Positions 7,253 to 54,197 of a stretch of DNA of 64,000 nucleotides are shown here, one piece after another. The stretch is from contig JALFXV010000100.1 in NCBI GenBank assembly GCA_022786545.1, positions 37,353 through 101,352 of the forward strand, written 5' to 3'. The translations under genes were made by a program, and so were the position numbers. How positions within the stretch are numbered: position 1 is the stretch's first letter; each line of letters begins with the position of its first letter. The DNA is from Selenomonadaceae bacterium. Its GTDB lineage: Bacteria > Bacillota > Negativicutes > Selenomonadales > Selenomonadaceae. A model generated the notes under the pieces. It worked only from the letters and a program-made list of their open reading frames with translations, did not search any database and was not told the DNA's origin.

Positions 7253-8443
7253 ATGAGGAAAGTATTTAACCAATTAGCTATAAGCTTATATTCTCTTTTT
7301 GTAAGAGTATTTCCTGGTACTAATGTACAAAGGGCGGAGTGTAAGAAAATAGTGGTATTTTTTCCTCAGCAGCTGGGTGATGCCTTGTTGTTTTCGGATA
7401 CTCTGCAACAGTTAAGTATGATATATCCTAAAGATAAGGGGTATTCTATTTACTTTATTGCTGATAGTTCAGTTAATAAGTTTTTAAAAATTGCAGTGGA
7501 TGTTAGTAGAGAAATTAATTTTGTAGATTTTGATAAAGATAAGCTATTTTCTGAGTTTACCTATTATAAGGCGTTTTACAATCAGTATTTTATGATGGTC
7601 CATCATATAGTTGTACCAAATCCAAGCAATAGTGGATTAATTATAGGGATTGTATGCAATTCGCTGCATAAAACTATTGCTATCAATACGCATCAAACTA
7701 ATATGCTGTATAGAATATTGCTGAGAGGGTTATCTGAGGATGATGTATTGGAACATAATCAGTTAATGGTTTTTGAATTACATAAACTATTATTGAATAA
7801 GCTGGGCAACAGAAAGTATAGTTCGCACATGCCGTTTATTAGAAATATGCCACATAAAAGTCATGGGAGGTATTGTGTCTTACATCCGGGAGCTAGTTTA
7901 ACGTACAAGGTTTGGCCGATAGAAAAATATCTATGTATTGCGGATTATCTGACATCTGTATTAGAGTATGATGTTTTGTTGTGTGGAGATAGTTCTGATG
8001 TGAAATATGGGAAATATATAGAAGAACAAGCAAAATTGCCATATAGAATAAAAAACTATATAGGGAAAACCAGTTATGACGAATGGATAGGCGTTATACA
8101 AGGAGCAGAATTGGTTGTGGGAAGTGATAGTGCCAGCATACATATTGCAGCAGCTTCAGGCGTTCCAAGCATAGTTATATGTGGCTTATATGATAAGGGA
8201 ATATTTTTTCCGTATGTTTTAGATGAACATTTGCCAGGGAAGGTAATGCCAAAATGTTTGATCAAAGAAATGAAATGCTGTAGTTGCAGAACTAGAAGTT
8301 ATACTGGTGCTGGCAATAAGGATTGTTATGATAAGGTAAAGAAAGGTGAGGCGGCCATTTGTGTGTCAGCTATTTCTGAAGAAGATGTCCAAAAGATTAT
8401 TTATAAAACATTAAATATTTCAGAACGGAGAGATAAAACATGA
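7253..8443 (+). CDS. Glycosyltransferase family 9 (heptosyltransferase-like)
   Basis: FFPQQLGDALLFSDTL; LHPGASLTYKVWPIEKY; ELVVGSDSASIHIAAASGVPSIVICG. Confidence 0.78.
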   Translation: MRKVFNQLAISLYSLFVRVFPGTNVQRAECKKIVVFFPQQLGDALLFSDTLQQLSMIYPKDKGYSIYFIADSSVNKFLKIAVDVSREINFVDFDKDKLFSEFTYYKAFYNQYFMMVHHIVVPNPSNSGLIIGIVCNSLHKTIAINTHQTNMLYRILLRGLSEDDVLEHNQLMVFELHKLLLNKLGNRKYSSHMPFIRNMPHKSHGRYCVLHPGASLTYKVWPIEKYLCIADYLTSVLEYDVLLCGDSSDVKYGKYIEEQAKLPYRIKNYIGKTSYDEWIGVIQGAELVVGSDSASIHIAAASGVPSIVICGLYDKGIFFPYVLDEHLPGKVMPKCLIKEMKCCSCRTRSYTGAGNKDCYDKVKKGEAAICVSAISEEDVQKIIYKTLNISERRDKT

Positions 8444-9039
8444 GAGAAGAATGGGTTAACAATTTATTGAATGTAAAGCATGATTTGCTGAACGAGATAG
8501 CCAGAGATGGCGGATATCTTGACCAGGTGCTGGCAGCGGCAGAGGTCATGACTGATGCCATAAAAAGCGGTCACAAGATTTTGCTGGCTGGTAATGGGGG
8601 CAGTGCGGCAGATGCCCAGCATTTTGCGGGGGAGATTGTCGGCAGGTTTTTAGTGGAGCGAGAGGCCCTTCCAGCTATTTCCCTTTGCGTTGATCCATCT
8701 GTGATGACCTGCATAGGCAATGACTATGGTTATGACGAGGTATTTGCCAGACAGCTGGCAGGCCTGGGAAATGAGGGGGATGTGTTTATTGGCATTTCTA
8801 CCAGCGGCAATTCTGCCAATATCTATCGGGCGATGGAGATTGCTAAGACGAAAAATATTAAGACGGCAGGACTTTTGGGACGGGACGGCGGAAGGATTAA
8901 GGACATAGCTGACATAAGTCTGATTGTGCCATCTGAAAGTACGCCTCGGATACAGGAAATACATGGCTTTACTGTACATTTGCTGTGCGAGATTATTGAA
9001 AAAAATATTTTTGCAGGGGAGAAGAAAGTTCATGAGTAA
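8440..9039 (+). CDS. gmhA: Phosphoheptose isomerase
   Basis: SIS domain GNGGSAADAQHFAGEIVGRF; ISTSGNSANI; followed by heptose kinase and epimerase genes. Confidence 0.9.
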   Translation: MREEWVNNLLNVKHDLLNEIARDGGYLDQVLAAAEVMTDAIKSGHKILLAGNGGSAADAQHFAGEIVGRFLVEREALPAISLCVDPSVMTCIGNDYGYDEVFARQLAGLGNEGDVFIGISTSGNSANIYRAMEIAKTKNIKTAGLLGRDGGRIKDIADISLIVPSESTPRIQEIHGFTVHLLCEIIEKNIFAGEKKVHE

Positions 9040-10030
9040 TAATTTTTCCAGGCTGGCAGATATAGTAAAAAATAAGTTTTCTCAGCAGAATATACTGGTG
9101 ATTGGCGATTTGATGGTGGATGAATATGTCACAGGCCAGGTGTCAAGGATTTCCCCGGAAGCCCCGGTGCCGGTTTTGCGGTACAGCAAGAAGTCTATGG
9201 AAGCCGGAGGCGCTTCCAATGTTGCTAATAATGTCCATGCTTTGGGGGCTGGTGTAGCAGTTTCCGGCCTGGCAGCGGATGATTTTGCCGGCAGGTGGCT
9301 TAGAAAGCACTTGTATGAGATGGGCATCGATGTGTCAGGCATTATTGCAGAGCAAAACAGGGATACCATTGTCAAGACAAGGTTTGCGACAAAAGGGCAG
9401 CAGCTGCTGCGCGTTGATAATGAACTTACAGAAGAAATAAATGGTAATTCACGTAATGCTATTCTTACATATTTAAAGGAGCATATCTCAGGATTTTCCG
9501 CGGTGATACTTTCAGATTATAAAAAAGGTGTACTTAATTCAGGGGAATTTGTGGCGGAAATTATCAGAATCTGCAATGAAAATAATGTCTTGATTTCTGT
9601 GGATTCCAAGAGCCGCAATATTGAGGCATTTAAAGGGGCGGATTTTGTCAAGCCAAATAATTTGGAATTGGCAGAAGCTGTAGGCTTTGCCATCAAGGAT
9701 GAGGAATCCTTGAACCGGGCCGGAGAGGAATATTTATTGAGGTCAGGTGCCAAGGCATTAGTGGTAACAAAAGGTGCCAAAGGTATTTCGTTGTTCAGGA
9801 GGCAGCAGGACAGGCTTGATTTCCCGGCTGCGGAGGTGCAGGTATACGATGTTACCGGTGCCGGTGATACTGTAATCAGTACGATTACGCTGGGATTGGC
9901 AAGTGGCTTGGATTTTTCAGATGCCATTTTTCTGGCAAATCTGGCTGCCGGAAAGGTTATCAGTTCAGTGGGGACAGCGGCAATCAGACAGGATGAGTTG
10001 ATAAAGTCTATCGTGCGCGAAAAGAGGTAA
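9032..10030 (+). CDS. D-glycero-beta-D-manno-heptose-7-phosphate kinase (kinase domain only, RfaE1-type)
   Basis: PfkB-type kinase; VISRISPEAPVPVL and GAGDTVISTITLGLASG; ends without a cytidylyltransferase domain. Confidence 0.86.
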   Translation: MSNNFSRLADIVKNKFSQQNILVIGDLMVDEYVTGQVSRISPEAPVPVLRYSKKSMEAGGASNVANNVHALGAGVAVSGLAADDFAGRWLRKHLYEMGIDVSGIIAEQNRDTIVKTRFATKGQQLLRVDNELTEEINGNSRNAILTYLKEHISGFSAVILSDYKKGVLNSGEFVAEIIRICNENNVLISVDSKSRNIEAFKGADFVKPNNLELAEAVGFAIKDEESLNRAGEEYLLRSGAKALVVTKGAKGISLFRRQQDRLDFPAAEVQVYDVTGAGDTVISTITLGLASGLDFSDAIFLANLAAGKVISSVGTAAIRQDELIKSIVREKR

Positions 10031-10035
10031 TAGGG

Positions 10036-11001
10036 ATGGTTATTGTAACTGGCGGGGCTGGTTTTATAGGCAGCTGCGTGGTACGCATGCTGAATGAGAT
10101 GGGGATAAGTGATATTGTAATAGTTGACCATATTTCAGCAACTGATAAATGGAAAAATATGTGCAATAAATCTTATTTGGAATATATAAACAGGGATGAA
10201 TTTTTGGGCAGGCTGGATGAATTTTCAGGCAAGGTTTCTCATGTTATACACATGGGTGCATGCTCTGCTACTACTGAGCGAGATTTTGATTTTCTGTATA
10301 AGAATAATTTTGAATACAGCAAAAAACTGTGGCATTTTTGTGCGGAAAATGAGATAAGCTTCATTTATGCCAGCAGTGCAGCAACTTATGGTGACGGCAG
10401 TCATGGGTTTGATGATAAAGATGATATAAAGGCTTTGTTGCCATTGAATGGATATGGTTACTCCAAGCAGTTATTTGATTTGTGGGTGGAAAAACAGCAG
10501 TCTGCACCTAAGCAGCATGTCGGCTTTAAGTTTTTTAATGTTTATGGCCCTAATGAGTATTTTAAGGGGAGCATGGCAAGTGTAATTTTCCATACCTTCA
10601 ACAGCATAAGGAAGACTGGAAAGATGGGCTTGTTCAAATCCTATAAAGAGGGCGTTGCGGATGGACAGCAGCTGCGTGATTTTGTCTATGTAAAGGATAT
10701 TTGCAGTGTAATCAAATATATGCTGGAGCATCCTGAGATTAACGGTTTGTTTAATTTGGGAACTGGTGTGGCACGAAGCTTTTATGACCTGGCAACGGCT
10801 ACTTTTGCAGCGATGGGGCTGGAGCCAGAGATAGAATTTATTGATATGCCTGAGCATTTGAGGGGCAAGTATCAATATTTTACCCAGGCAAATATGGAAA
10901 AGCTTCGTAGTGTTGGATATGATGTTCCTTTTTATACGCTGGAAGCAGGTGCTGAGGATTATGTGCAAAATTATCTGCTGAAGGATTATGCTGTATATTG
11001 A
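10036..11001 (+). CDS. hldD: ADP-L-glycero-D-manno-heptose-6-epimerase
   Basis: MVIVTGGAGFIGSCVVR; FKFFNVYGPNEYFKGSMASVIFH; LFNLGTG. Confidence 0.9.
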   Translation: MVIVTGGAGFIGSCVVRMLNEMGISDIVIVDHISATDKWKNMCNKSYLEYINRDEFLGRLDEFSGKVSHVIHMGACSATTERDFDFLYKNNFEYSKKLWHFCAENEISFIYASSAATYGDGSHGFDDKDDIKALLPLNGYGYSKQLFDLWVEKQQSAPKQHVGFKFFNVYGPNEYFKGSMASVIFHTFNSIRKTGKMGLFKSYKEGVADGQQLRDFVYVKDICSVIKYMLEHPEINGLFNLGTGVARSFYDLATATFAAMGLEPEIEFIDMPEHLRGKYQYFTQANMEKLRSVGYDVPFYTLEAGAEDYVQNYLLKDYAVY

Positions 11002-12977: not shown

Positions 12978-13787
12978 ATGGTAATTTTTCCAGAAATACC
13001 TTTAGATAAGTTTAAATTGATTTCCATAAGGGATTATAAGCATCCATCAAATTTGGAGTATTTGCCTTGCCCATCGGTTTTTGCACTGCCGTCTCCAGAT
13101 AATGTTTCTTTTGACATAAAAAGAAAATTTGGGTTAATTGGGCACAAGGATTTACCAGTTAGTCTTGGCAATTTATCTATAGAGGCTATTAATAACAGTA
13201 GCAGTATAAATGAGATAGCAGAGTTTATTTTGTCCTCAGAAGCTGTAATTACTAATTCGTATCATTTTGCATTCTGGACTATGTTACTTAGGCGCAAGGC
13301 GATAGTGATAAATAAATTCAGTACGAAATTTGATTATTATAAATATCGACCGGAATTTGTTACTGTTAGTAAAAATGATGACGCAGCAACTATAAAAGAA
13401 GTTTTAGAAGCAGCCTATGGAAGGGCAAAAATATATGATACTGCTTATGATGAAGCTGTAAATTTGAACAATGGTTTTTGGGAAAAAGTAAAAGAGATTA
13501 TACTTGAAAAGGGCATAAAAGAAGGGAATGATTATCAGCATTTATATGAATTAAATAATTCAAGTTTGTGGAATACCCAGAATGAACTTAATAAAATTGG
13601 TCGTATTTGTATTATATTGGAGGAGTTGCAGAATAATATCAATAATTTACATGATGAGCTTTACGATGTGATAAATAATCTGCATGACGAATTATATGGA
13701 GTAAATGCACAATTAAGAGAAGAAATTTCAAGTGGTCGTTTTATAAAAAAAGCATTGGCCAAGAAGATTTTAGGCAAAGGTGATTAA
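12978..13787 (+). CDS. Polysaccharide pyruvyl transferase-like protein, C-terminal-half length, with heptad tail
   Basis: ISIRDYKHPS...YLPCPSVFA and SSEAVITNSYHFAFWTMLLRRKAIVIN resemble the family C-terminal half; tail contains repeated NNLHDELYDV/NNLHDELYGV. Confidence 0.42.
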   Translation: MVIFPEIPLDKFKLISIRDYKHPSNLEYLPCPSVFALPSPDNVSFDIKRKFGLIGHKDLPVSLGNLSIEAINNSSSINEIAEFILSSEAVITNSYHFAFWTMLLRRKAIVINKFSTKFDYYKYRPEFVTVSKNDDAATIKEVLEAAYGRAKIYDTAYDEAVNLNNGFWEKVKEIILEKGIKEGNDYQHLYELNNSSLWNTQNELNKIGRICIILEELQNNINNLHDELYDVINNLHDELYGVNAQLREEISSGRFIKKALAKKILGKGD

Positions 13788-15108
13788 TAAGATGGAGTTT
13801 ATACAAAAATTAAGTATGTGGGATATCGTTTTTATCACATTAGCTATGGTTATAGCAGAAGCGGTTGTTCTAGTGATTTTAGCAAGGCATATAAAAAGTC
13901 CGTTGAAGAAGTTAATCAAAGCATATAGAGAGCAAGGCGCAGCCTTTGTTGTATCAAAATTGAGAGAAAAAGGTAATGTTTTTTTTATAAAACATGGATT
14001 TAAGCACGTGGAGACGGGAAAAAAGTATTCAAAAAAAGTTATTAACTTTAACTTTTTTTCAAGACGGCTTGATGTGTATGAAGAATATGAGAATAATTTT
14101 GTAACGATAGCATTTTATCCTACAGGTGGGATGGGAGATTATATTATTTCAGCAAAAATACTGGAAGAAATTCAGGAATGTTGTGATTGTCAAATTGATG
14201 TTTTTGTTGAGAAAAAGGTGTTTGGGGAGGCTGTTTATGGGGGAAGACAAAAAGTTAAAGTCGTTAGTGCAGAGGACTTCTATATTGAAGAAATAAAATA
14301 TGATTTAGCAGTGCTAGTAGAGCATTTTGTTCATGTTATTGGAAAAAAAGATGATAGATTGCTGCAATTTGCCCCTAACTTATACGATAAGGTGAAATAC
14401 ATCGAAAATAACTGGAATAAATTGTATGTGGATATCTCGAAGCAGTGCTGGCGCGAAAGAATACAGTTTGAGCGATGTAAAGTTTTAGGCTTGAACAGAT
14501 GGACTGAGCTTCGTATGGGGAAAGCGTTTAATGTAGAGAATATGCAAGTAACAATACCATTTAATTCCTTATATGAAAAAGACTTCATGGCGGCTGAATT
14601 CTACGGAACCAGATATGTAACCATTAATTATGGAGCAGATGCGATGAAAATTGGGCTCAAGCAGCTAAAGTTATGGCCAAAAGAGCATATAGAGGCATTT
14701 GTGAAATCATTTAAGCAAAGATTTGAAAATGTAAATGTTATACAATTAGGTGGTGCAGATGCGGAAAAGCTGGCTGGTGTGGATTTTTATATATTAGGTG
14801 AAAGTATAGAACTGACCAAGTATATATTGAGAGATTCATTGTGTCATGTTGATTGTGAGGGAGGATTGGTTCATTTAGCAACGCAGTTGGATACTAAATG
14901 TGTTGTTGTTTTTGGTCCTACCCCTGTTCATATGTATGGCTATCCTCAAAATGTAAATTTATATAGTTCTGTATGCAATAACTGCATGGGATTGCATGAG
15001 GATTGGGCGTATACATGCTATAGAGGTGATGAGGTTCCGTGTATGAGGAAAATAGACAGCGATACTGTGCTGAAAAGTGTGACACAGGTAATTGATGATA
15101 GCAAGTGA
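13780..15108 (+). CDS. Membrane-anchored glycosyltransferase family 9-like protein
   Basis: N-terminal hydrophobic helix; C-terminal LKLWPKEHIEAFVKSF, VIQLGGADAEKL, HVDCEGGLVHLATQLDTKCVVVFGPT. Confidence 0.65.
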   Translation: MINKMEFIQKLSMWDIVFITLAMVIAEAVVLVILARHIKSPLKKLIKAYREQGAAFVVSKLREKGNVFFIKHGFKHVETGKKYSKKVINFNFFSRRLDVYEEYENNFVTIAFYPTGGMGDYIISAKILEEIQECCDCQIDVFVEKKVFGEAVYGGRQKVKVVSAEDFYIEEIKYDLAVLVEHFVHVIGKKDDRLLQFAPNLYDKVKYIENNWNKLYVDISKQCWRERIQFERCKVLGLNRWTELRMGKAFNVENMQVTIPFNSLYEKDFMAAEFYGTRYVTINYGADAMKIGLKQLKLWPKEHIEAFVKSFKQRFENVNVIQLGGADAEKLAGVDFYILGESIELTKYILRDSLCHVDCEGGLVHLATQLDTKCVVVFGPTPVHMYGYPQNVNLYSSVCNNCMGLHEDWAYTCYRGDEVPCMRKIDSDTVLKSVTQVIDDSK

Positions 15109-46178: not shown

Positions 46179-46391
46179 TATGATTTGTGTTATGAGAAAA
46201 TAGGTAAGAACTGTGCTGAGGCAAAGGATAGGCGGGAATATAAGAAGGTAACGAAGCAGATTGCACAGCTTATAAAATGGAAGGGGAATGATACGGCCAA
46301 GGCACTAATTGATGAACTGAAACAGACATATCCAAGGAGACCAGCACTGCTGGATGAGCTGGGAAAGGTGGAGAAGAGGCTGAAAAGCTGA
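46140..46391 (+). CDS. Small hypothetical protein (weak)
   Basis: 83-aa ORF; helical, charged C-terminus TYPRRPALLDELGKVEKRL; N-terminus overlaps hairpin so start uncertain. Confidence 0.35.
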   Translation: MRQIVFWGIICRIYDLCYEKIGKNCAEAKDRREYKKVTKQIAQLIKWKGNDTAKALIDELKQTYPRRPALLDELGKVEKRLKS

Positions 46392-46427
46392 TGAGCAGGG
46401 CCTATGAGTGTTTAAAAGGCATATTTG

Positions 46428-47150
46428 TTAAAACTTTAAATCTTTGTAGGCTTTGTTGCTGTGAGCATGCCGCATGGCTGCTATGTAAATTACAGCAGGA
46501 ATTATGACCCGGTAAGCAGGCCCGGCAATATCAACGATTGTCCAGAGCGCTGTGATAGCTATGCCGACAGGACCGGCGAAGACGGATAATACTCTGGTCA
46601 ATGCAGCGTTGGCAGCCAGGCTGAGGCCACGGTTAAGAACCATCTTTGCTATGATATTGGCAATCACCACTGCAAGCTGGTAAGAAGCAAAACCGCCTGC
46701 ACGGAAAACCTGCAGAAGTACGAGAGAGCTTGCTCCCTTCATGGAACCGGTCTGTCCTGTCTGCTGAAGAATATTTTCCTTGTCGGCATTGGACATTTTT
46801 TCCCAGGAATCAGCGAGTACTTTTTCAAGGAGATTATGTTCGATATGTTCAATACTTTGCTGGCTGTTAAAATTAACCTTCATTTTTTCGCAAACCTTAA
46901 TGAGGATTTCTTTGTAGGAGTTGCAGCCGAAGGAAAAGGTATTGGAGCCGTATTCTTTTAGTTCACGGCGCAGGAGATGCGTATAAGTGCTAGGCCGGTC
47001 GGGATTGGCACGATAATCGCTATAAGAATCAAGATTACAGGTGATACCGCCCTTTTTCAGGTAAATGTCCCGTAGCACAAGCAGTTCTTCGTCCGTCATT
47101 TCATCCAGGATTTCCAGACCATCAATGCAACAGTTTTTTGTATTAGACAT
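46428..47150 (-). CDS. YaaW/UPF0174 (DUF3944)-like protein
   Basis: EMTDEELLVLRDIYLKKGG...LKEYGSNTF..., hydrophobic Gly/Ala segments, terminal AYRVIIPAVIYIAAMRH resembling YaaW C-terminus. Confidence 0.65.
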   Translation of the reverse strand: MSNTKNCCIDGLEILDEMTDEELLVLRDIYLKKGGITCNLDSYSDYRANPDRPSTYTHLLRRELKEYGSNTFSFGCNSYKEILIKVCEKMKVNFNSQQSIEHIEHNLLEKVLADSWEKMSNADKENILQQTGQTGSMKGASSLVLLQVFRAGGFASYQLAVVIANIIAKMVLNRGLSLAANAALTRVLSVFAGPVGIAITALWTIVDIAGPAYRVIIPAVIYIAAMRHAHSNKAYKDLKF

Positions 47151-47170
47151 AAAGAGTTCATCCTTTCTCA

Positions 47171-47341
47171 TTAAATAATCGTTTTTAAATGTAAATCTTT
47201 TTTTATTCCCACAATGTCAAAGTCATCCGGATTTTCCTTGTAGCTGTAAATAAGGTATTCAATTAATTCTCCAGGTGACAAAAGTGAGATTAGCTCCTCA
47301 GCCGATAGCCTGCCGTATTCTTGCATTTCCTCTGCTGTCAT
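47171..47341 (-). CDS. Small 56-aa protein upstream of YaaW-like gene (not in ORF track)
   Basis: Hand translation MTAEEMQEYGRLSAEELISLLSPGELIEYLIYSYKENPDDFDIVGIKKDLHLKTII; GGAGG RBS upstream. Confidence 0.65.
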   Translation of the reverse strand: MTAEEMQEYGRLSAEELISLLSPGELIEYLIYSYKENPDDFDIVGIKKDLHLKTII

Positions 47342-47460
47342 AAAGGCAAACCTCCTTTCAATTATTTGCTTCAGCTGATAAGTGTATGATATACTAAAAA
47401 AGCAGCTGATAGGTCAATTTAAGATTAACGTTTATTCGGACTTCAAAAGGGGATGTTGTT

Positions 47461-48147
47461 GTGGATGAGAAAAAAGATGGCAAAGAGTATTTGCTGAATA
47501 ATTTTGAGCGTATAGAGGGAAGTTATAAGATACCGATTATGATGACATCTGCAGCAGTTGGGGCTGTTGCTGCTGGTTTGCTGGGGGCGGCAGGGGGAAT
47601 TATTGGCGGTATTATTGGTAGTGTTTTCCTGGAAAATGTCTTTTGCGGGGCTGATAAGGACAAAGAAAAATCCCTGGAAGAAAAGCGTGAAGAAGTAGCA
47701 GCTTCATCGCCAGCCGGTAAGGAAAAAGCCAGAAATTTGACTGCCGGGGATATTCCGGAGGAGTTATTTGATGATAAAACACTTGCCAGGCGCAAGCTGT
47801 TTTGCCAGAAGCTTTTTCAATATGAAAATGAAATGGGCTTAACAGATGTAGAACTTTATACTAAGGCACATATTTCCAAAGCTGTCTTTTCTCACATACG
47901 GGGTATGATGAGAGATGGCACTTATCGTCCTAGCAAGGTCAATGTGATATGTTTGTGTATTGCATTGAATTTAACTGCTGGGCAGGCTGAAGAAATGTTA
48001 GGTCTATTGGAGTATTCTTTTTCGAATGCAGATAAGCTGGATCGGATAGTTCATTGGTGTTTGAGCAACACGGAATTTTATTTTACAGTGGATTCATTAA
48101 ATGAAATTTTTTACGATAAGCTAGGCGAAACCCTGCTCCCTGTGTAA
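47461..48147 (+). CDS. Glycine-zipper membrane segment fused to HTH-like C-terminal module
   Basis: TSAAVGAVAAGLLGAAGGIIGGIIGSVF; C-terminal LTDVELYTKAHISKAVFSHIRGMMRDGTYRPSKVNVICLCIALNLTAGQAEEMLGLLEYSFSNADKLDRIVHWCLSN. Confidence 0.7.
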   Translation: MDEKKDGKEYLLNNFERIEGSYKIPIMMTSAAVGAVAAGLLGAAGGIIGGIIGSVFLENVFCGADKDKEKSLEEKREEVAASSPAGKEKARNLTAGDIPEELFDDKTLARRKLFCQKLFQYENEMGLTDVELYTKAHISKAVFSHIRGMMRDGTYRPSKVNVICLCIALNLTAGQAEEMLGLLEYSFSNADKLDRIVHWCLSNTEFYFTVDSLNEIFYDKLGETLLPV

Positions 48148-48164
48148 CAAAATCGTTTTACCCG

Positions 48165-48196
48165 CTCCCTGGCTGTAGTAAGGCTGGGAGTTTTTT
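48165..48196 (+). terminator. Hairpin terminator
   Basis: CTCCCTGGCtgtagtaaGGCTGGGAGTTTTTT. Confidence 0.7.
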
Positions 48197-48306
48197 GTTA
48201 ATCATGGATTTACCTCTAAAAGATTGCCAGGAGCTATAATTATCATTGAAAAGAGGAGATGTTCTCAGGACGGCTGCTAAGGCAAGTTTTTTAGGAGGTA
48301 AAAATT

Positions 48307-48552
48307 ATGAAAACGAATAAGATTACTATTGTTAAAAGGAACAATGTTATTGATTTTTATTATCATGTAAAAGAGGGAAAGAAGTACCTGTTTTCCCAGA
48401 AATTTTCCAAGGGGGTATATGAGTATTTCCAGAATGGACGCCTGGAATTAGAGATTTTGGCGTTCAAGAAGTGGAACCACAATCCAAGGCTGGATAAAAC
48501 CATTAGCAAGCTTCCCATGTACATCCGTTATGTATTGAAGGAATGTGCATGA
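48307..48552 (+). CDS. 81-aa hypothetical protein
   Basis: ORF with TTAGGAGG RBS and own terminator; MKTNKITIVKRNNVIDFYYHVKEGKKYLFSQKFSKGVYEYF. Confidence 0.6.
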   Translation: MKTNKITIVKRNNVIDFYYHVKEGKKYLFSQKFSKGVYEYFQNGRLELEILAFKKWNHNPRLDKTISKLPMYIRYVLKECA

Positions 48553-48598
48553 TGGTGCGGTGAAAGAATCAAGGTATGACTGGCTGCCCTATTGCTGC

Positions 48599-48646
48599 TG
48601 CGGCATGGCACTGAAGATGTAGTACATGCCGCATCTCCTCTTTTTC
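48599..48646 (+). terminator. Hairpin terminator after 81-aa ORF
   Basis: TGCGGCATG(48599-48607)/CATGCCGCA(48625-48633) then TCTCCTCTTTTTCTTT. Confidence 0.7.
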
Positions 48647-48795
48647 TTTGTAAATTATCAAAAATATGCAGGATTTTTTCTACAGATGTAGAATTAATAC
48701 ATTGGTAAGGAGTTGGATTTGTTTCTGGCCAGGACGTAGAGGCAAAGATTATTTATGTCAGAATGGTAAAAGATAAAGTACGGCTGAGAGGTTTT

Positions 48796-49950
48796 ATGGG
48801 AAAAAAGCAAATCAGATTTATGGCACTGGGAGGTGCCCAGCGTGTAGGCGCAAGCTGTTATTACCTGGGCCTGGGGGATAGCCACATTCTGTTGGATTGC
48901 GGGATAGGACAGTTATCAGGCATGCGGCTGAATCCGGTAATTAATTCGTTGCTGGGGATACCAGGGATATACAGCTTTAGGCAGATTATGGAGGTATACA
49001 TTTCTCATGCCCATTTAGATCATAGCGGCTATTTGCCTGAGCTTTTTAAGCAATCGACTGAATGTAGGGCGTATATGACTGAGATAACCAGAAGGCTGCT
49101 GCATCATCAGTACTCAACTGAAGGTTATGCAAAAATGATGCATTATAAGCGTTCATATACCTCAAGTATGTTGGAAAATGTATTCTTGCGCAGTGCGAGT
49201 GTAAGCTATTGCAATAAGATGCCCTTTAATGAATACAGTGTGGAATTTTTGCAGGCAGGGCATATTCCAGGGGCTATGATGATGTTATTTTCATATGCCG
49301 GCAAGAATATTTTGTATACAGGAGATTTTTCCATCAATGGGAGTATTTTAACAGAGGGCTGCATGTTGCCTGACAAGGAGATTGATCTTATGATCATGTG
49401 CGGCTTGCATGCCAAGCACCCGCTGAAGCACAAAAGCGTTGATGTGTTTGAAGTTTTTTGTGCCGAAGTGAGTGATTATTTGAGCATGGAGGAGAATGTC
49501 TATTGCCAGACTGCCCAGCTTAGCAAGGGGGTAGAGCTGCTCAAGTTTTTAAATTCATTTGTACCGCCATTCATCAAGATATATGTGGACCCATATATTT
49601 ATGGCGTGGTCAGGGAATTGGAGCGTTTGAATGTGCAGATTTTTCAACGTAACAATTATCTTTTGTCTGAAAACTCAGATTTGTCCGCCCAGCATATTAT
49701 TTTGTCAACACGCCGCCAGTCAGGGTATTTTTCTCAATATGCTCATGTAGATGGGAATTTTTCCCTGCATGATTCCTTTGAGGAGACCTTGCATTTTATC
49801 AAGCAGATTAACTCGCGGGATGCTGTGATCGTACACAGTCCTGGGAATTTAGATGGGTCTGTTGAAACAGTGGAGCAGAGACTGGTTTTTGATCCTGATT
49901 GCAGGACACAGTTTTTGTTTCCGGAAGAACAGGAATTGTATGTGTTTTAG
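48796..49950 (+). CDS. MBL-fold protein, CPSF/beta-CASP-like but degenerate
   Basis: FMALGGAQRVGASCYYLGLGDSHILLDCGIG; SHAHLDHSGYLPELF; ILYTGDFSINGSIL; start uncertain (ORF from 48763). Confidence 0.75.
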   Translation: MGKKQIRFMALGGAQRVGASCYYLGLGDSHILLDCGIGQLSGMRLNPVINSLLGIPGIYSFRQIMEVYISHAHLDHSGYLPELFKQSTECRAYMTEITRRLLHHQYSTEGYAKMMHYKRSYTSSMLENVFLRSASVSYCNKMPFNEYSVEFLQAGHIPGAMMMLFSYAGKNILYTGDFSINGSILTEGCMLPDKEIDLMIMCGLHAKHPLKHKSVDVFEVFCAEVSDYLSMEENVYCQTAQLSKGVELLKFLNSFVPPFIKIYVDPYIYGVVRELERLNVQIFQRNNYLLSENSDLSAQHIILSTRRQSGYFSQYAHVDGNFSLHDSFEETLHFIKQINSRDAVIVHSPGNLDGSVETVEQRLVFDPDCRTQFLFPEEQELYVF

Positions 49951-49980
49951 GGAATTATCCAAGGCAGAGGAGGAGTCTTT

Positions 49981-51075
49981 ATGATTAATACTAAGAGTGA
50001 AAAGTTTCAGGAATTTTTGAAGTATGTTCACAATGAATACGAAAACAAGAAGCGGAGAACTAGTGAAAATGCGGAGTACATCGTTGAGAGCAAGATTCTC
50101 AAGCAGATATTGCATGAGCCTGAAAGAGGACCTAAGTATTGGAGCGATGTTGTCAGCCGTGAGCTTTATACAAATATCAGCGATGATGAGGTCATCCGCG
50201 TTTTGCGCAATACTGTACCAAGGCTGAACAGCCCCTTAGACAGAAAAAAGATTATCCCATCCGTATTGAAAACAGCAGAGGCATTCAGGTCGGCCTTAGA
50301 AAAGGGGACGCCTGAGGCTTATGAAGGATTTATTGCCATGCGGGATGAAACAGCAGGTAATCATCGCTCTGTGCCTCGTCTTCTGTGTTTCGCTATTTTC
50401 CATGTCTGTCCGGAAATAAATTATTATAATGATTTAGATACCCAGGAAACTTTTCGGGATACTATTTCCAAATATGTCATGTATGGCATTTCTGATGCTC
50501 TGGCAGGTTATTGCAATGCAAGATATAAAAAGAGTAATGACCGAAAGGACAGCAATAGCAGGAACAATGGCAGGGGCAGCAGGAAGGAAGCTGACAATAA
50601 AATCAGCCAGATGGAAGAAGCGATGGAACGCAATCGGATGATGTTGCAGGATTTGCAGGATGAGTTTGACGAGCAGCTGCAGGAGACAAAAGTGCAGGAG
50701 CTGACAGCTTTTTTTGCCAAGCTTAATTCTGACAAATACGGCAGCATCCTGGACTCCCTTTTGCAGGTGCGCAGGGGCATAGCCCAGCTGAAGAAGGAGC
50801 ATTTTGTTTTGCCGCCGGAAGTAAGTGGCCTGTTCATCCTGATTCAGAAAATGACACAGTTTGTTATGGACAATCACATAAATCCCATCATGAAGCCTGA
50901 CTCAATTCTGGAACTGACTGCACAGGAAGCGGAAAGGTGCGATTATACAGGTTCAGCTTTTATGGACAAGGATAAGCCAAAACGTGTGCGTGTGGTTTCA
51001 CCTGGCTGGTTTTACATGGATAAGGATATCGTGATTGCCAAACCAAAAATCAAGGAGGTAGAAGAAAATGAGTAA
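49981..51075 (+). CDS. GrpE-like coiled-coil protein with N-terminal extension
   Basis: Coiled coil KISQMEEAMERNRMMLQDLQDEFDEQLQE; C-terminal RVVSPGWFYMDKDIVIAKPKIKEV reminiscent of GrpE terminal beta domain; overlaps downstream hsp70. Confidence 0.5.
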   Translation: MINTKSEKFQEFLKYVHNEYENKKRRTSENAEYIVESKILKQILHEPERGPKYWSDVVSRELYTNISDDEVIRVLRNTVPRLNSPLDRKKIIPSVLKTAEAFRSALEKGTPEAYEGFIAMRDETAGNHRSVPRLLCFAIFHVCPEINYYNDLDTQETFRDTISKYVMYGISDALAGYCNARYKKSNDRKDSNSRNNGRGSRKEADNKISQMEEAMERNRMMLQDLQDEFDEQLQETKVQELTAFFAKLNSDKYGSILDSLLQVRRGIAQLKKEHFVLPPEVSGLFILIQKMTQFVMDNHINPIMKPDSILELTAQEAERCDYTGSAFMDKDKPKRVRVVSPGWFYMDKDIVIAKPKIKEVEENE

Positions 51076-53971
51076 CGATGCGATTCATGATTTATGTATA
51101 GGTATTGATTTGGGCACTACAAATTCCGTTTTGGCCACTGTCAATCAGAGGCCAAATGGAGAGTTAAAAAGTACGGTCATAGATTTGAAAAGAGCCGTTG
51201 ATGTTTATACGTTTAATGGCAAGGCCAAGCCGCAAATGGAAAAAAAGCCTACGCTGCCATCATGTGTATACTACAATGAAGATAATAATTATCGGCCTAT
51301 CGTGGGAAACTTTGCTAAAAACAGGTATGCTGTACGTCCTCATTTAGTAGCAAAGTCCATTAAGAGCCACATGGGTGAGAAGGATGTCAGCAATCTGGGC
51401 TTTGCTGATGAAATACCTGATAAGACGCCGGCACAGATTGCCTCGCGGATTTTGCAGCACATGCTGCGAGAGGCGGGGGCAATTTTTCATAAGGTGATTG
51501 AGGAAGCTGTAATCACTGTTCCGGCTAATTTTGATTCTATTATGGTCAAGGCAACACGTGATGCTGCAGCCTTGGCAGGTATCAAGGTATTTAATAATGA
51601 TGGTTCAGAACGGCCTATCATCCTGGAGGAGCCAAAGGCTGTGCTGTATGATTTTATCAATAAAGCCGCCAATGGAGAAATTTCTGAGCACATTATCGAT
51701 TTAAGTACCAAAAAGAATATCATGGTTTTTGATCTTGGTGGCGGCACCCTCGATATTACCTTGCACGAAGTCAAGAGACGTGAGGATTGCCAGGATATTA
51801 TCAAGGTTGATGATATAGCCATCAACCGGTATACGCTTTTGGGCGGTGACAATTTTGATCAGGCACTGGCCGAAGAGATGTACAGGAGGTTTTTGCAGAA
51901 ATATGCTAATCGTGAAGACGTGGTCCGCCAGCTGAAAAAAGATGAAAAAGCGATTATGTCACAGCTGCTGACATACGCTGAAGATTTGAAGCTGGATTTA
52001 AGCGTCAGCATCGAAAATGAGGCTGGCGGTTCTGACAGTGAAAACTGGTGGGGAGATGAGGATGAAGACGAAGGCTTTAATGTTGGCGGCAATGTAGGCA
52101 GTACAGGTTTTAGCTATGATGATGTATTTACCAAGGAAGAAATAGAGGCTGTCTATGAAGAATTTATGGGCAGGGATCTTTCTGTGAATGATTATAAGAA
52201 GATTGATCAGCTGGGTGTTTTGACCAATACAAACAACATAGTGTACCCTATCCTGGATGTGCTGAATAAAGCCGCTAAGAAACTCGGTACTGATGAGGTC
52301 AAGGTTGATGCTGTTATATTAAATGGCGGCATGTCCAAATTCTATATGATCAAGGACCGCCTGAGGGAACTGTTTGGCTTTGAGCCTATTGAAGCGATGG
52401 ATCCCGACCAGGCTGTTGCGAGAGGTGCAGCCGTTTACCATTATTATTTAAAGAAAACCGAGTTTGCCATCAGTGATGATATGCGCACGGTGGGAGATAA
52501 TGCTTCCGAGGTGGCCGAAGCAGTAGCAGAACATGTTAAAAAACAGCAGAGCAGCATGCTTGCCGTGAAGCAGGAAGCCGCAGCGAAGAAAAACGTTGTG
52601 CCTTTGCAAAGAGTTGAGTGGGGCAGGAATATAATTAATGACAGCCTGTATCTTGGCACGTCTAACAATACAAGGGTCAAGATTATTGCTACAGGCACGG
52701 AACTGCCGTATACTTCCGAGATATTAAAAGGCTTTCAGCTGATGCCTAATAATGGTAACGGCAGGATAGATATACCTATTCAGCTGAAAAATATTGATGG
52801 CAAGACATATCGTACTATTGCAAAGGGACAGATCAACTTTAACAAAAAGTATGCGTCAGGAGCGTATGTGGTACTTAAAGTGGAGGTCAGCCGCAGCAAG
52901 ATCATCACCATGTATGCCTGGACCTGCAGCGATGTAGAGGGACAGAATATTCTGGAAAATGGTGTGTGCAGAATTGAAATTTCTGACAATGATGCCCAGC
53001 GGCAGAAGCAAAAGCTGGTATCCATGACCAGCAATAAGCTGGAGCCTAACAGCATCCTTAATTCCTTGTCAAATATTTTTAATGTCAAGAAAAAGCAGAG
53101 ATGGCAAAAGCATAAGATCAAGGAATGTTCAGCCAAGGCCGCTATCCTGGTGAACCAGATTATTTCGGCGTCAAATCTGGAGGATTTTGCGAAGCCTGTC
53201 ATCAAAGCTTTTTCCAGTAATTCCTCCTGTGAGGAATATAAATGCAGATTGGCGATTATTGGCAGAAAAATTTGCCATCGTTGGACAGAAAGAGAACGCC
53301 AGCAATTTGCGGATGCATGCATCGGTAATTTCCTGACAGATATGTATTCGCTGGAATGGAATACATCAGCGGGCGGTGAGATTGTAAACACAAGAATACA
53401 ATCTATTTATGCACTGTCTGTTTGTGGTACAGAAGGTGATGTGCTTAATCTGAAAAAGCTGAGGCAGCAGAACAGGTATTATTTGGCCTGCCTATATACT
53501 TTTGGCAAGCGTCATCTTGATATTCCGTGGCTGTACGAATGTCTGGTTAAAGACTGTGATCTCCTGATCAGGAAGAATGGCAACGGAAAATCCTATTTGC
53601 AAAATACTTCTCATGCCATCGGCCTGGCTTTTAATAGTTATGTCTGCAAGGATGAGAATGAGCAGAAGTTGCGCAATAATGCTGCCATACGTCTGACCAA
53701 GGTGCTTCAGACGGATACTATAACAGGCGCCGAATCAATTTGCTCTATTATTGCGCTGGGATTGGTATGCGACCAGCGTAATCTTAATGAGATCAGGAGC
53801 GATGTGCTGCGGGAGGCAGAAAATGTATTGACGTATATCAGCAAGTATGTTTATCTTGAAGATCTTCCAGCCAGTGAAAAGTCGGCGGCTATAGCATTGA
53901 AGCTGATGAAAGGTGATAACCTCACTGAGGATGAAGAGAAATACTTACTGAAAAAATTGGAACTGGATTAA
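51068..53971 (+). CDS. Hsp70-family protein (967 aa) with acidic insert and large C-terminal helical extension
   Basis: LCIGIDLGTTNSVLATV; VFDLGGGTLDITLHEV; ILNGGMSKFYMIKDRL; acidic insert GDEDEDEGF; helical C-terminus. Confidence 0.92.
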   Translation: MSNDAIHDLCIGIDLGTTNSVLATVNQRPNGELKSTVIDLKRAVDVYTFNGKAKPQMEKKPTLPSCVYYNEDNNYRPIVGNFAKNRYAVRPHLVAKSIKSHMGEKDVSNLGFADEIPDKTPAQIASRILQHMLREAGAIFHKVIEEAVITVPANFDSIMVKATRDAAALAGIKVFNNDGSERPIILEEPKAVLYDFINKAANGEISEHIIDLSTKKNIMVFDLGGGTLDITLHEVKRREDCQDIIKVDDIAINRYTLLGGDNFDQALAEEMYRRFLQKYANREDVVRQLKKDEKAIMSQLLTYAEDLKLDLSVSIENEAGGSDSENWWGDEDEDEGFNVGGNVGSTGFSYDDVFTKEEIEAVYEEFMGRDLSVNDYKKIDQLGVLTNTNNIVYPILDVLNKAAKKLGTDEVKVDAVILNGGMSKFYMIKDRLRELFGFEPIEAMDPDQAVARGAAVYHYYLKKTEFAISDDMRTVGDNASEVAEAVAEHVKKQQSSMLAVKQEAAAKKNVVPLQRVEWGRNIINDSLYLGTSNNTRVKIIATGTELPYTSEILKGFQLMPNNGNGRIDIPIQLKNIDGKTYRTIAKGQINFNKKYASGAYVVLKVEVSRSKIITMYAWTCSDVEGQNILENGVCRIEISDNDAQRQKQKLVSMTSNKLEPNSILNSLSNIFNVKKKQRWQKHKIKECSAKAAILVNQIISASNLEDFAKPVIKAFSSNSSCEEYKCRLAIIGRKICHRWTERERQQFADACIGNFLTDMYSLEWNTSAGGEIVNTRIQSIYALSVCGTEGDVLNLKKLRQQNRYYLACLYTFGKRHLDIPWLYECLVKDCDLLIRKNGNGKSYLQNTSHAIGLAFNSYVCKDENEQKLRNNAAIRLTKVLQTDTITGAESICSIIALGLVCDQRNLNEIRSDVLREAENVLTYISKYVYLEDLPASEKSAAIALKLMKGDNLTEDEEKYLLKKLELD

Positions 53972-54197
53972 TTCCTCGGAAGATATCTGCCGGGAGGCCA
54001 GGTAAATGTTTTTGCCGGTGCAGGTTAAGTAAAGACTTCCTGGGGAGGGTAAAGGAGAAAAATTATGCGCAGGCTATTTTAAATATTTCTCAAATATTTT
54101 CCCCAGGTGGTTATAAATTTCCCTTTACTATGCTATAATGTAAAAATATCGGGGATTTTGTATCCTGTTCACTTGAATTATGATAGGAGAGAATAGC

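Follow-up and report, generated by a model that had tools for sequence, protein, structure and literature searches.

Why would a bacterium encode an apparent RNA-cutting metallo-enzyme in one operon with a large Hsp70 and what looks like the private nucleotide-exchange factor (NEF) of that Hsp70? The question is raised by a ~5.2-kb operon in a 64,000-nucleotide stretch of the Selenomonadaceae contig JALFXV010000100.1 (hereafter the window), which an original prediction had described as a specialised Hsp70 and a dedicated exchange factor controlling a metallohydrolase, possibly in stress or defence. We propose that the three genes (the trio) form a horizontally spread, chaperone-controlled, RNA-degrading three-protein defence module, a reading to which we give about an even chance. 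The proposal builds on computational observations: three recognisable protein families, intact active sites, strict co-inheritance, placement in an accessory block, and repeated adjacency to type III CRISPR (clustered regularly interspaced short palindromic repeats) genes. The three same-strand open reading frames, with a short gap and an overlap of genes 2 and 3, have the coordinates, sizes (in amino acids, aa) and strand first given for them:

48763-49950 (+): gene 1, 395 aa; putative beta-CASP metallo-nuclease, probable true start 48796
49981-51075 (+): gene 2, 364 aa; GrpE-like putative NEF with an extra N-terminal helical domain
51068-53971 (+): gene 3, 967 aa; Hsp70-HEAT protein

Genes 1 and 2 are spaced by 30 bp, and genes 2 and 3 overlap by 8 bp (ATGAGTAA, 51068-51075). 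Homologues of gene 1 align from residue 12 of the window protein onward, which points to the ATG at 48796 as the probable start.

Families and domains of the three proteins

Gene 1 had been read as a metallo-beta-lactamase (MBL) enzyme from an HxHxDH motif, which is found at residues 82–87, and Pfam matches the protein to Lactamase_B. Its best NCBIfam matches are aCPSF1 (TIGR03675, E=2e-29) and Cas14 (NF045584, E=5e-24), both under the family cut-offs, and in the PDB it matches CPSF73 (E=6e-20). The residues of MBL motifs 1–4 (Asp45; His82/His84/Asp86/His87; His167; Asp188) are all present and invariant in 31/31 homologues. The following elements were located:

49006-49023 (+): zinc-binding motif 2, HAHLDH, residues 82–87; all four ligands invariant in 31/31 diverse homologues
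49399-49401 (+): Cys213 in place of the beta-CASP motif A acid; an invariant Cys in Bacillota-type members
49759-49836 (+): motif B His336 (FSLHDSF) and motif C His358 (VHSPG); both His invariant, 31/31

A generic MBL hydrolase was rejected for gene 1, as motifs B and C and the CPSF73/Cas14 similarity are present. By sequence, gene 1 is a predicted beta-CASP nuclease of the CPSF73/aCPSF1/Cas14 branch; the earlier term metallohydrolase thus stands for the metallo-enzyme, but as a label it is too generic for a protein of the beta-CASP ribonuclease type. Nuclease activity, with RNA as the substrate, would be expected from the family. In two respects the window lineage departs from textbook enzymes: the motif A acid is missing (Cys213) and the beta-CASP insert is shortened. 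In three closely related fusobacterial loci (L171-L173), Glu (CEGT) occupies the position of the Bacillota-type Cys, and the nucleases have the textbook form, with CEGT, PAFALGRTQE, CSSGML, FSAHGD and a full insert. The L171 nuclease, the sole fusobacterial one searched, matches Cas14 best in the PDB (8yhd_H, E=9e-39), followed by INTS11 and CPSF73. Given this classical form, the Bacillota-type enzyme appears to be a reduced relative of the classical RNA-cutting beta-CASP nucleases. The nuclease of a further locus, L170, looks intermediate between the fusobacterial and Bacillota types.

The assignment of gene 3 to Hsp70 was confirmed (PF00012, E=4e-36; 125 bits vs a cut-off of 20.6). Its domains are arranged as follows:

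51068-52462 (+): Hsp70 nucleotide-binding domain (NBD), from PF00012 and alignments of homologues
52646-52978 (+): substrate-binding domain (SBD), beta part (Foldseek DnaK SBD, probability 1.00, E=2e-5)
53045-53956 (+): HEAT-like alpha superhelix of ~16 helices at the place of the Hsp70 lid (AlphaFold2 model)

Six ATPase residues (Asp14, Lys84, Glu188, Asp222, Thr227 and Asp229) are invariant in 36/36 homologues, and the ATPase site is, as judged by sequence, intact. In the AlphaFold2 model of residues 515–967 (predicted local distance difference test, pLDDT, 87.6), SBD-beta is followed by ~16 helices and there is no DnaK-type lid. The label HEAT-like is our reading of the helix pattern; this superhelix, standing in for the lid, would explain why the Hsp70 is large. 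Gene 3 is not DnaK proper, as judged by an equivalog score of 129 vs 648 bits and by the replaced SBD-alpha lid.

Gene 2 is the least easily classified of the three. The GrpE-like C terminus originally claimed for it finds no backing in Pfam, where no family is convincing and PF01025 stays under the gathering score (E=0.37 for the window protein, E=0.09 for the best member), but is upheld by predicted topology and global alignment. The AlphaFold2 model (28 homologues, pLDDT 85) has an N-terminal helical domain (residues 1–178) and then a 50-residue helix, which leads into a helical hairpin and, at the C terminus, a small beta domain; the last three follow the order of the GrpE elements. Two of these elements map to:

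50575-50724 (+): long helix, equivalent of the GrpE stalk (residues 199–248, AlphaFold2 model)
50878-51057 (+): C-terminal beta domain with the signature SPGW..Y....I..P..KE (residues 300–359)

A whole-protein Foldseek search gave no match with E<0.001 among those listed, and the sole appreciable probability among the 50 matches listed was for GrpEL1 (9blt_B, probability 0.66, E=0.42), the mitochondrial protein bound to mortalin in that PDB entry. Global profile-profile alignment (hhalign) of the C-terminal half against the family's GrpE proteins scored 21.8, compared with a maximum of 10.3 for 60 column-shuffled controls and 12.1 for a reversed control; in an earlier local alignment with a narrower gene 2 profile, 1 of 20 shuffles outscored the real one. 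With moderate confidence we regard gene 2 as GrpE-like, and as a putative dedicated NEF for the gene 3 Hsp70. The window genome also encodes an ordinary GrpE. As first noted, the operon has no visible DnaJ partner: no J-domain gene was found near the trio, and the genome has one DnaJ only. In some loci of one genus, g10 (L016, L027, L048, L117), a second, shorter NEF paralogue of ~280-290 aa, which matches the N-terminal part only, is positioned between the nuclease and the full NEF.

Distribution, inheritance and neighbourhood

Gene 2 is present in 45/189 species of the order to which the window genome belongs, and in the loci fetched from this order it has the same trio neighbours. A GTDB-wide scan with gene 2 returned 76 loci, from Selenomonadaceae, Lachnospiraceae, Ruminococcus/Oscillospiraceae, Phascolarctobacterium, Synergistaceae, Riflebacteria and one Fusobacteriales metagenome-assembled genome. 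Named strains with the trio are Anaerovibrio lipolyticus An883, Lachnoanaerobaculum orale DSM 24553 and L. saburreum DSM 3986. For Synergistaceae and Riflebacteria, the loci come from metagenome bins. The order nuclease–NEF–Hsp70 is kept in 69 of the 70 informative loci, the exception being L056 and the remaining six of the 76 being cut by contig ends. A search of Fusobacteriota revealed a divergent yet complete trio in four genomes. Outside the family, a phylum-wide phmmer search found nothing credible among the ~400 genomes sampled, a sample size that explains why it missed distant trios found by the GTDB-wide scan.

Pairwise distances between loci, taken for each of the three proteins, correlate with r=0.90-0.95 (53 loci). 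The co-occurrence of the trio is far beyond chance and the three proteins are inherited as a unit, in keeping with the first idea of a specialised Hsp70 paired with its own exchange-factor-like protein and a metallo-enzyme. A failure of the three genes to co-occur in other genomes had been named beforehand as a refuting outcome; the trio was instead found together in a range of anaerobes, Negativicutes and Clostridia among them. In one Lachnospiraceae locus (L059), three more Hsp70-like genes lie around the trio (446-2776, 8753-10240 and 13660-15062); one of these three, of 776 aa, is directly upstream of it.

The accessory location suspected for the trio was borne out by comparison with a sister genome, G007:

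46185-54084 (no strand): accessory block with the trio, 7.9 kb, missing from G007

G007 matches the window at ~97% up to 46184 and at ~93% from 54085 on, with ~134 bp between the flanks; since it lacks the block and its flanks are only this far apart, the block is taken to be accessory. In genera other than g10 the trio is patchy. Its flanking genes vary between genera, without any family that recurs from one genus to the next.

Type III CRISPR genes were met repeatedly near the trio, in several lineages independently (L058, L061, L107, L119 and L171-L174), though in a minority of all loci. In L. orale (L058), a Cas6 gene lies 212 bp upstream of the trio, and in L171 and L058 Cas6 is co-directional with the trio, 129-212 bp upstream. 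Three fusobacterial loci are as follows: (i) in L171 an array lies on either side of the trio, which is directly preceded by two Cas6 genes and has Cas1, Cas2 and Cas10 around it; (ii) in L174 it is followed by CARF-ADA, Cas6, Cas2, Cas1, Csx1, Cas10a and Csm genes of a III-A locus; and (iii) in L173 Cas1/Cas2-like genes and arrays lie a few kb away. L107 has type III-D Cas7/Cas5 genes, a CARF gene and Cas6, with an array between Cas6 and the trio; L061 has Cas6 and Cas10a; and L119 has a CARF gene and one for the CARF-HEPN protein Csx1.

Cas6 was observed three times in trio flanks vs 0.08 expected (P=8e-5), the expectation being based on 20 Cas6 genes in 37 trio genomes with only the flanks examined. 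Cas10 was found in 5/5 trio genomes of the window's order outside g10 vs 25/118 genomes without the trio, and within g10 in 6/40 vs 0/26; the window genome itself has a type III Cas10 elsewhere. Because adjacency to type III CRISPR genes is repeated, the original phrase "stress or defence" can be narrowed: defence is favoured, stress less so. A PADLOC tally of 138 flanking genes gave scattered defence matches with no dominant class.

Other neighbours were recorded in two of these loci. Genes for a vWA protein, a protein kinase(-Ppx/GppA) and PP2C lie just downstream of the trio in L173 (12774-17123), and a vWA and kinase-like pair lies near it in L107 (17205-19773); both sets are reminiscent of TerY-P-like triads. 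L107 also has a DUF697/EcsC-like protein gene (8323-8808) between the CRISPR array and the trio.

Proposed mechanism, alternatives and precedents

In the proposed defence module, the CPSF73/Cas14-type beta-CASP nuclease would be the effector and would cut RNA; the Hsp70, with its HEAT-like scaffold, would hold, load or release the nuclease, and the dedicated GrpE-like factor would reset the Hsp70 ATP cycle in place of the general GrpE. Infection-linked clients, either unfolded viral or nascent proteins or ribosome/RNA complexes recognised through SBD and HEAT, would occupy the Hsp70, which in its client-occupied state would free or target the nuclease. The outcome would be transcript degradation, either independently or together with type III CRISPR, itself an RNA-recognising system. 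As there is no private J protein, the cycle may be set by contact of SBD-beta and HEAT with client, RNA or ribosome. That RNA is the substrate, that the chaperone controls the nuclease and that the system acts against phage is what we infer, as is the trigger. Precedents exist: bNACHT25 detects phage through DnaJ and requires DnaJ–DnaK contact (PMC12169576), RNase J2, likewise a beta-CASP enzyme, is needed for type III-A immunity in Staphylococcus epidermidis (PMC9762709), and type VII CRISPR cuts RNA by Cas14 (PMC10910872, PMC12669027).

Several observations weigh against a horizontally spread defence module. In many species of genus g10 the trio is found at a single conserved site, the pattern expected of genes passed on vertically, and it has no match in phage, plasmid or viral-contig collections, on which ground a phage- or plasmid-borne module was rejected. 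No CARF or other signal-binding domain is present in the trio, and the Cys that replaces the motif A acid in the window lineage could alter activity. Most trio loci have neither CRISPR nor other recognised defence genes as neighbours, and Cas10 co-occurrence, not significant when pooled (p=0.20), becomes so only when permuted within genera (p=3e-4). The CRISPR tests were framed only after the first Cas6 had been seen and defence genes tend to cluster in general; we therefore read the trio as defence-associated more than as part of CRISPR.

One variant ties the trio more closely to CRISPR: the Hsp70-HEAT/NEF pair would switch or load a Cas14-like beta-CASP ribonuclease onto target RNA, acting both as a stand-alone phage sensor and as a type III accessory. 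We entertain this CRISPR-linked chaperone machine tentatively; it would be, to our knowledge, the first immune nuclease under the control of its own Hsp70 cycle. Possible, if rather doubtful, is also a housekeeping machine for RNA processing or quality control, in which the Hsp70/NEF pair assembles or recycles the beta-CASP RNase on RNA or ribosomes and has no defence role. The fixed chromosomal site across g10, the intact ATPase and nuclease sites, the congruent evolution of the three proteins and the absence of the trio from plasmid and phage collections would all suit such a machine, whereas its patchiness outside g10, the accessory block, the spread across phyla and the enrichment beside type III CRISPR genes would not.

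The trio might also be a type III ancillary module proper, downstream of or contacting Csm/Cmr or CRISPR RNA maturation, in the manner of S. epidermidis RNase J2. The upstream co-directional Cas6 genes of L171 and L058, the array between Cas6 and trio in L107, the III-A locus beside the trio in L174, the Cas14 similarity of the nuclease and the Cas10 elsewhere in the window genome point in this direction; we nevertheless consider it unlikely, since the trio lacks CARF and any other sensor of cyclic nucleotides, in many trio genomes no Cas6 or no strong Cas10 is detectable, and most loci are remote from CRISPR. Least probable is a stress-response chaperone system with the nuclease-like protein as client or as a degenerate, catalytically altered adaptor: the invariant motif A Cys and an insert shorter than in the classical fusobacterial form would fit, but all zinc ligands, like the two catalytic His, are invariant, which a dead adaptor would not be expected to show.

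Returning to the defence module, we compared the trio with the systems it most resembles. Type VII CRISPR-Cas shares with it an RNA-cutting beta-CASP family in a CRISPR context, and among solved structures its Cas14 is nearest to the fusobacterial trio nuclease. The trio operon, however, has NEF and Hsp70 partners instead of Cas7/Cas5, its nuclease ends ~37 residues after motif C with no C-terminal Cas10-like domain, and the Cas14 profile scores 84.5 bits (window) and 150 bits (L171) vs an NCBIfam cut-off of 800. The CnuD protein of type III CoCoNuTs combines Hsp70-like NBD/SBD with HEAT-like repeats and degenerate ATP sites (PMC11090510). Compared by description only, it resembles gene 3 in its Hsp70-plus-HEAT plan and in predicted RNA targeting with an RNase partner; unlike it, the trio has a fully conserved ATPase site and a dedicated NEF, and neither a McrB-like GTPase (CnuB) nor a HEPN RNase. 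Dedicated HSP70 and GrpE genes are also a feature of the predicted GAP1-N2 GTPase conflict systems of actinobacteria and firmicutes (PMC7159879), but no GTPase or FNIII/DnaJ protein recurs at the trio, and a lactamase-fold enzyme is unmentioned in PMC7159879.

Relative to CPSF73, aCPSF1 and RNase J, gene 1 retains all zinc ligands and the motif B and C His, and differs in the window-lineage motif A Cys, the shortened insert, its operonic Hsp70 and in that no added RNA-binding domain was seen. The Hsp70 and exchange-factor pair recalls the DnaK-DnaJ-GrpE machine, from which the trio departs in having no J protein, a HEAT-like superhelix for the lid, an extra N-terminal domain in the NEF, and a nuclease in the operon. 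No trio protein scanned has a PADLOC match to CARF, SAVED or another cyclic-nucleotide sensor, nor is any PADLOC model match convincing (best E=0.001).

The earlier statement that no named system has this composition holds: no description of the trio, as a housekeeping pathway or otherwise, was found in the open-licence literature, Pfam, NCBIfam or PADLOC. As its parts are of known folds and their assembly fits no system we can name, the novelty of the trio lies in its composition and not in a demonstrated function. If the proposal is correct, a private bacterial Hsp70 cycle controls a relative of CPSF73, Integrator and Cas14 that cuts RNA, tying protein-quality sensing to RNA destruction in immunity; this would offer a route into why Hsp70s recur in predicted conflict systems such as CoCoNuTs and GAP1-N2.

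Other genes of the accessory block

Besides the trio, the block contains a JukA-like gene and a helix-turn-helix (HTH)-like gene. A tRNA search at the window locus found none, no integrase was noticed, and a repeat scan of the window found no cryptic CRISPR array. The JukA-like gene (46428-47171, −; PADLOC JukA, E=1e-49) lies 1.6 kb upstream of the trio; no JukB was recognised adjoining it, and it was rejected as a system component, homologues being present in 0/76 trio loci. Divergent from it is a gene at 47461-48147 (+) for a protein of 228 aa, which combines a glycine-zipper-like hydrophobic stretch with an HTH-like part, matched no family, and is possibly a partner or regulator of the JukA-like gene.

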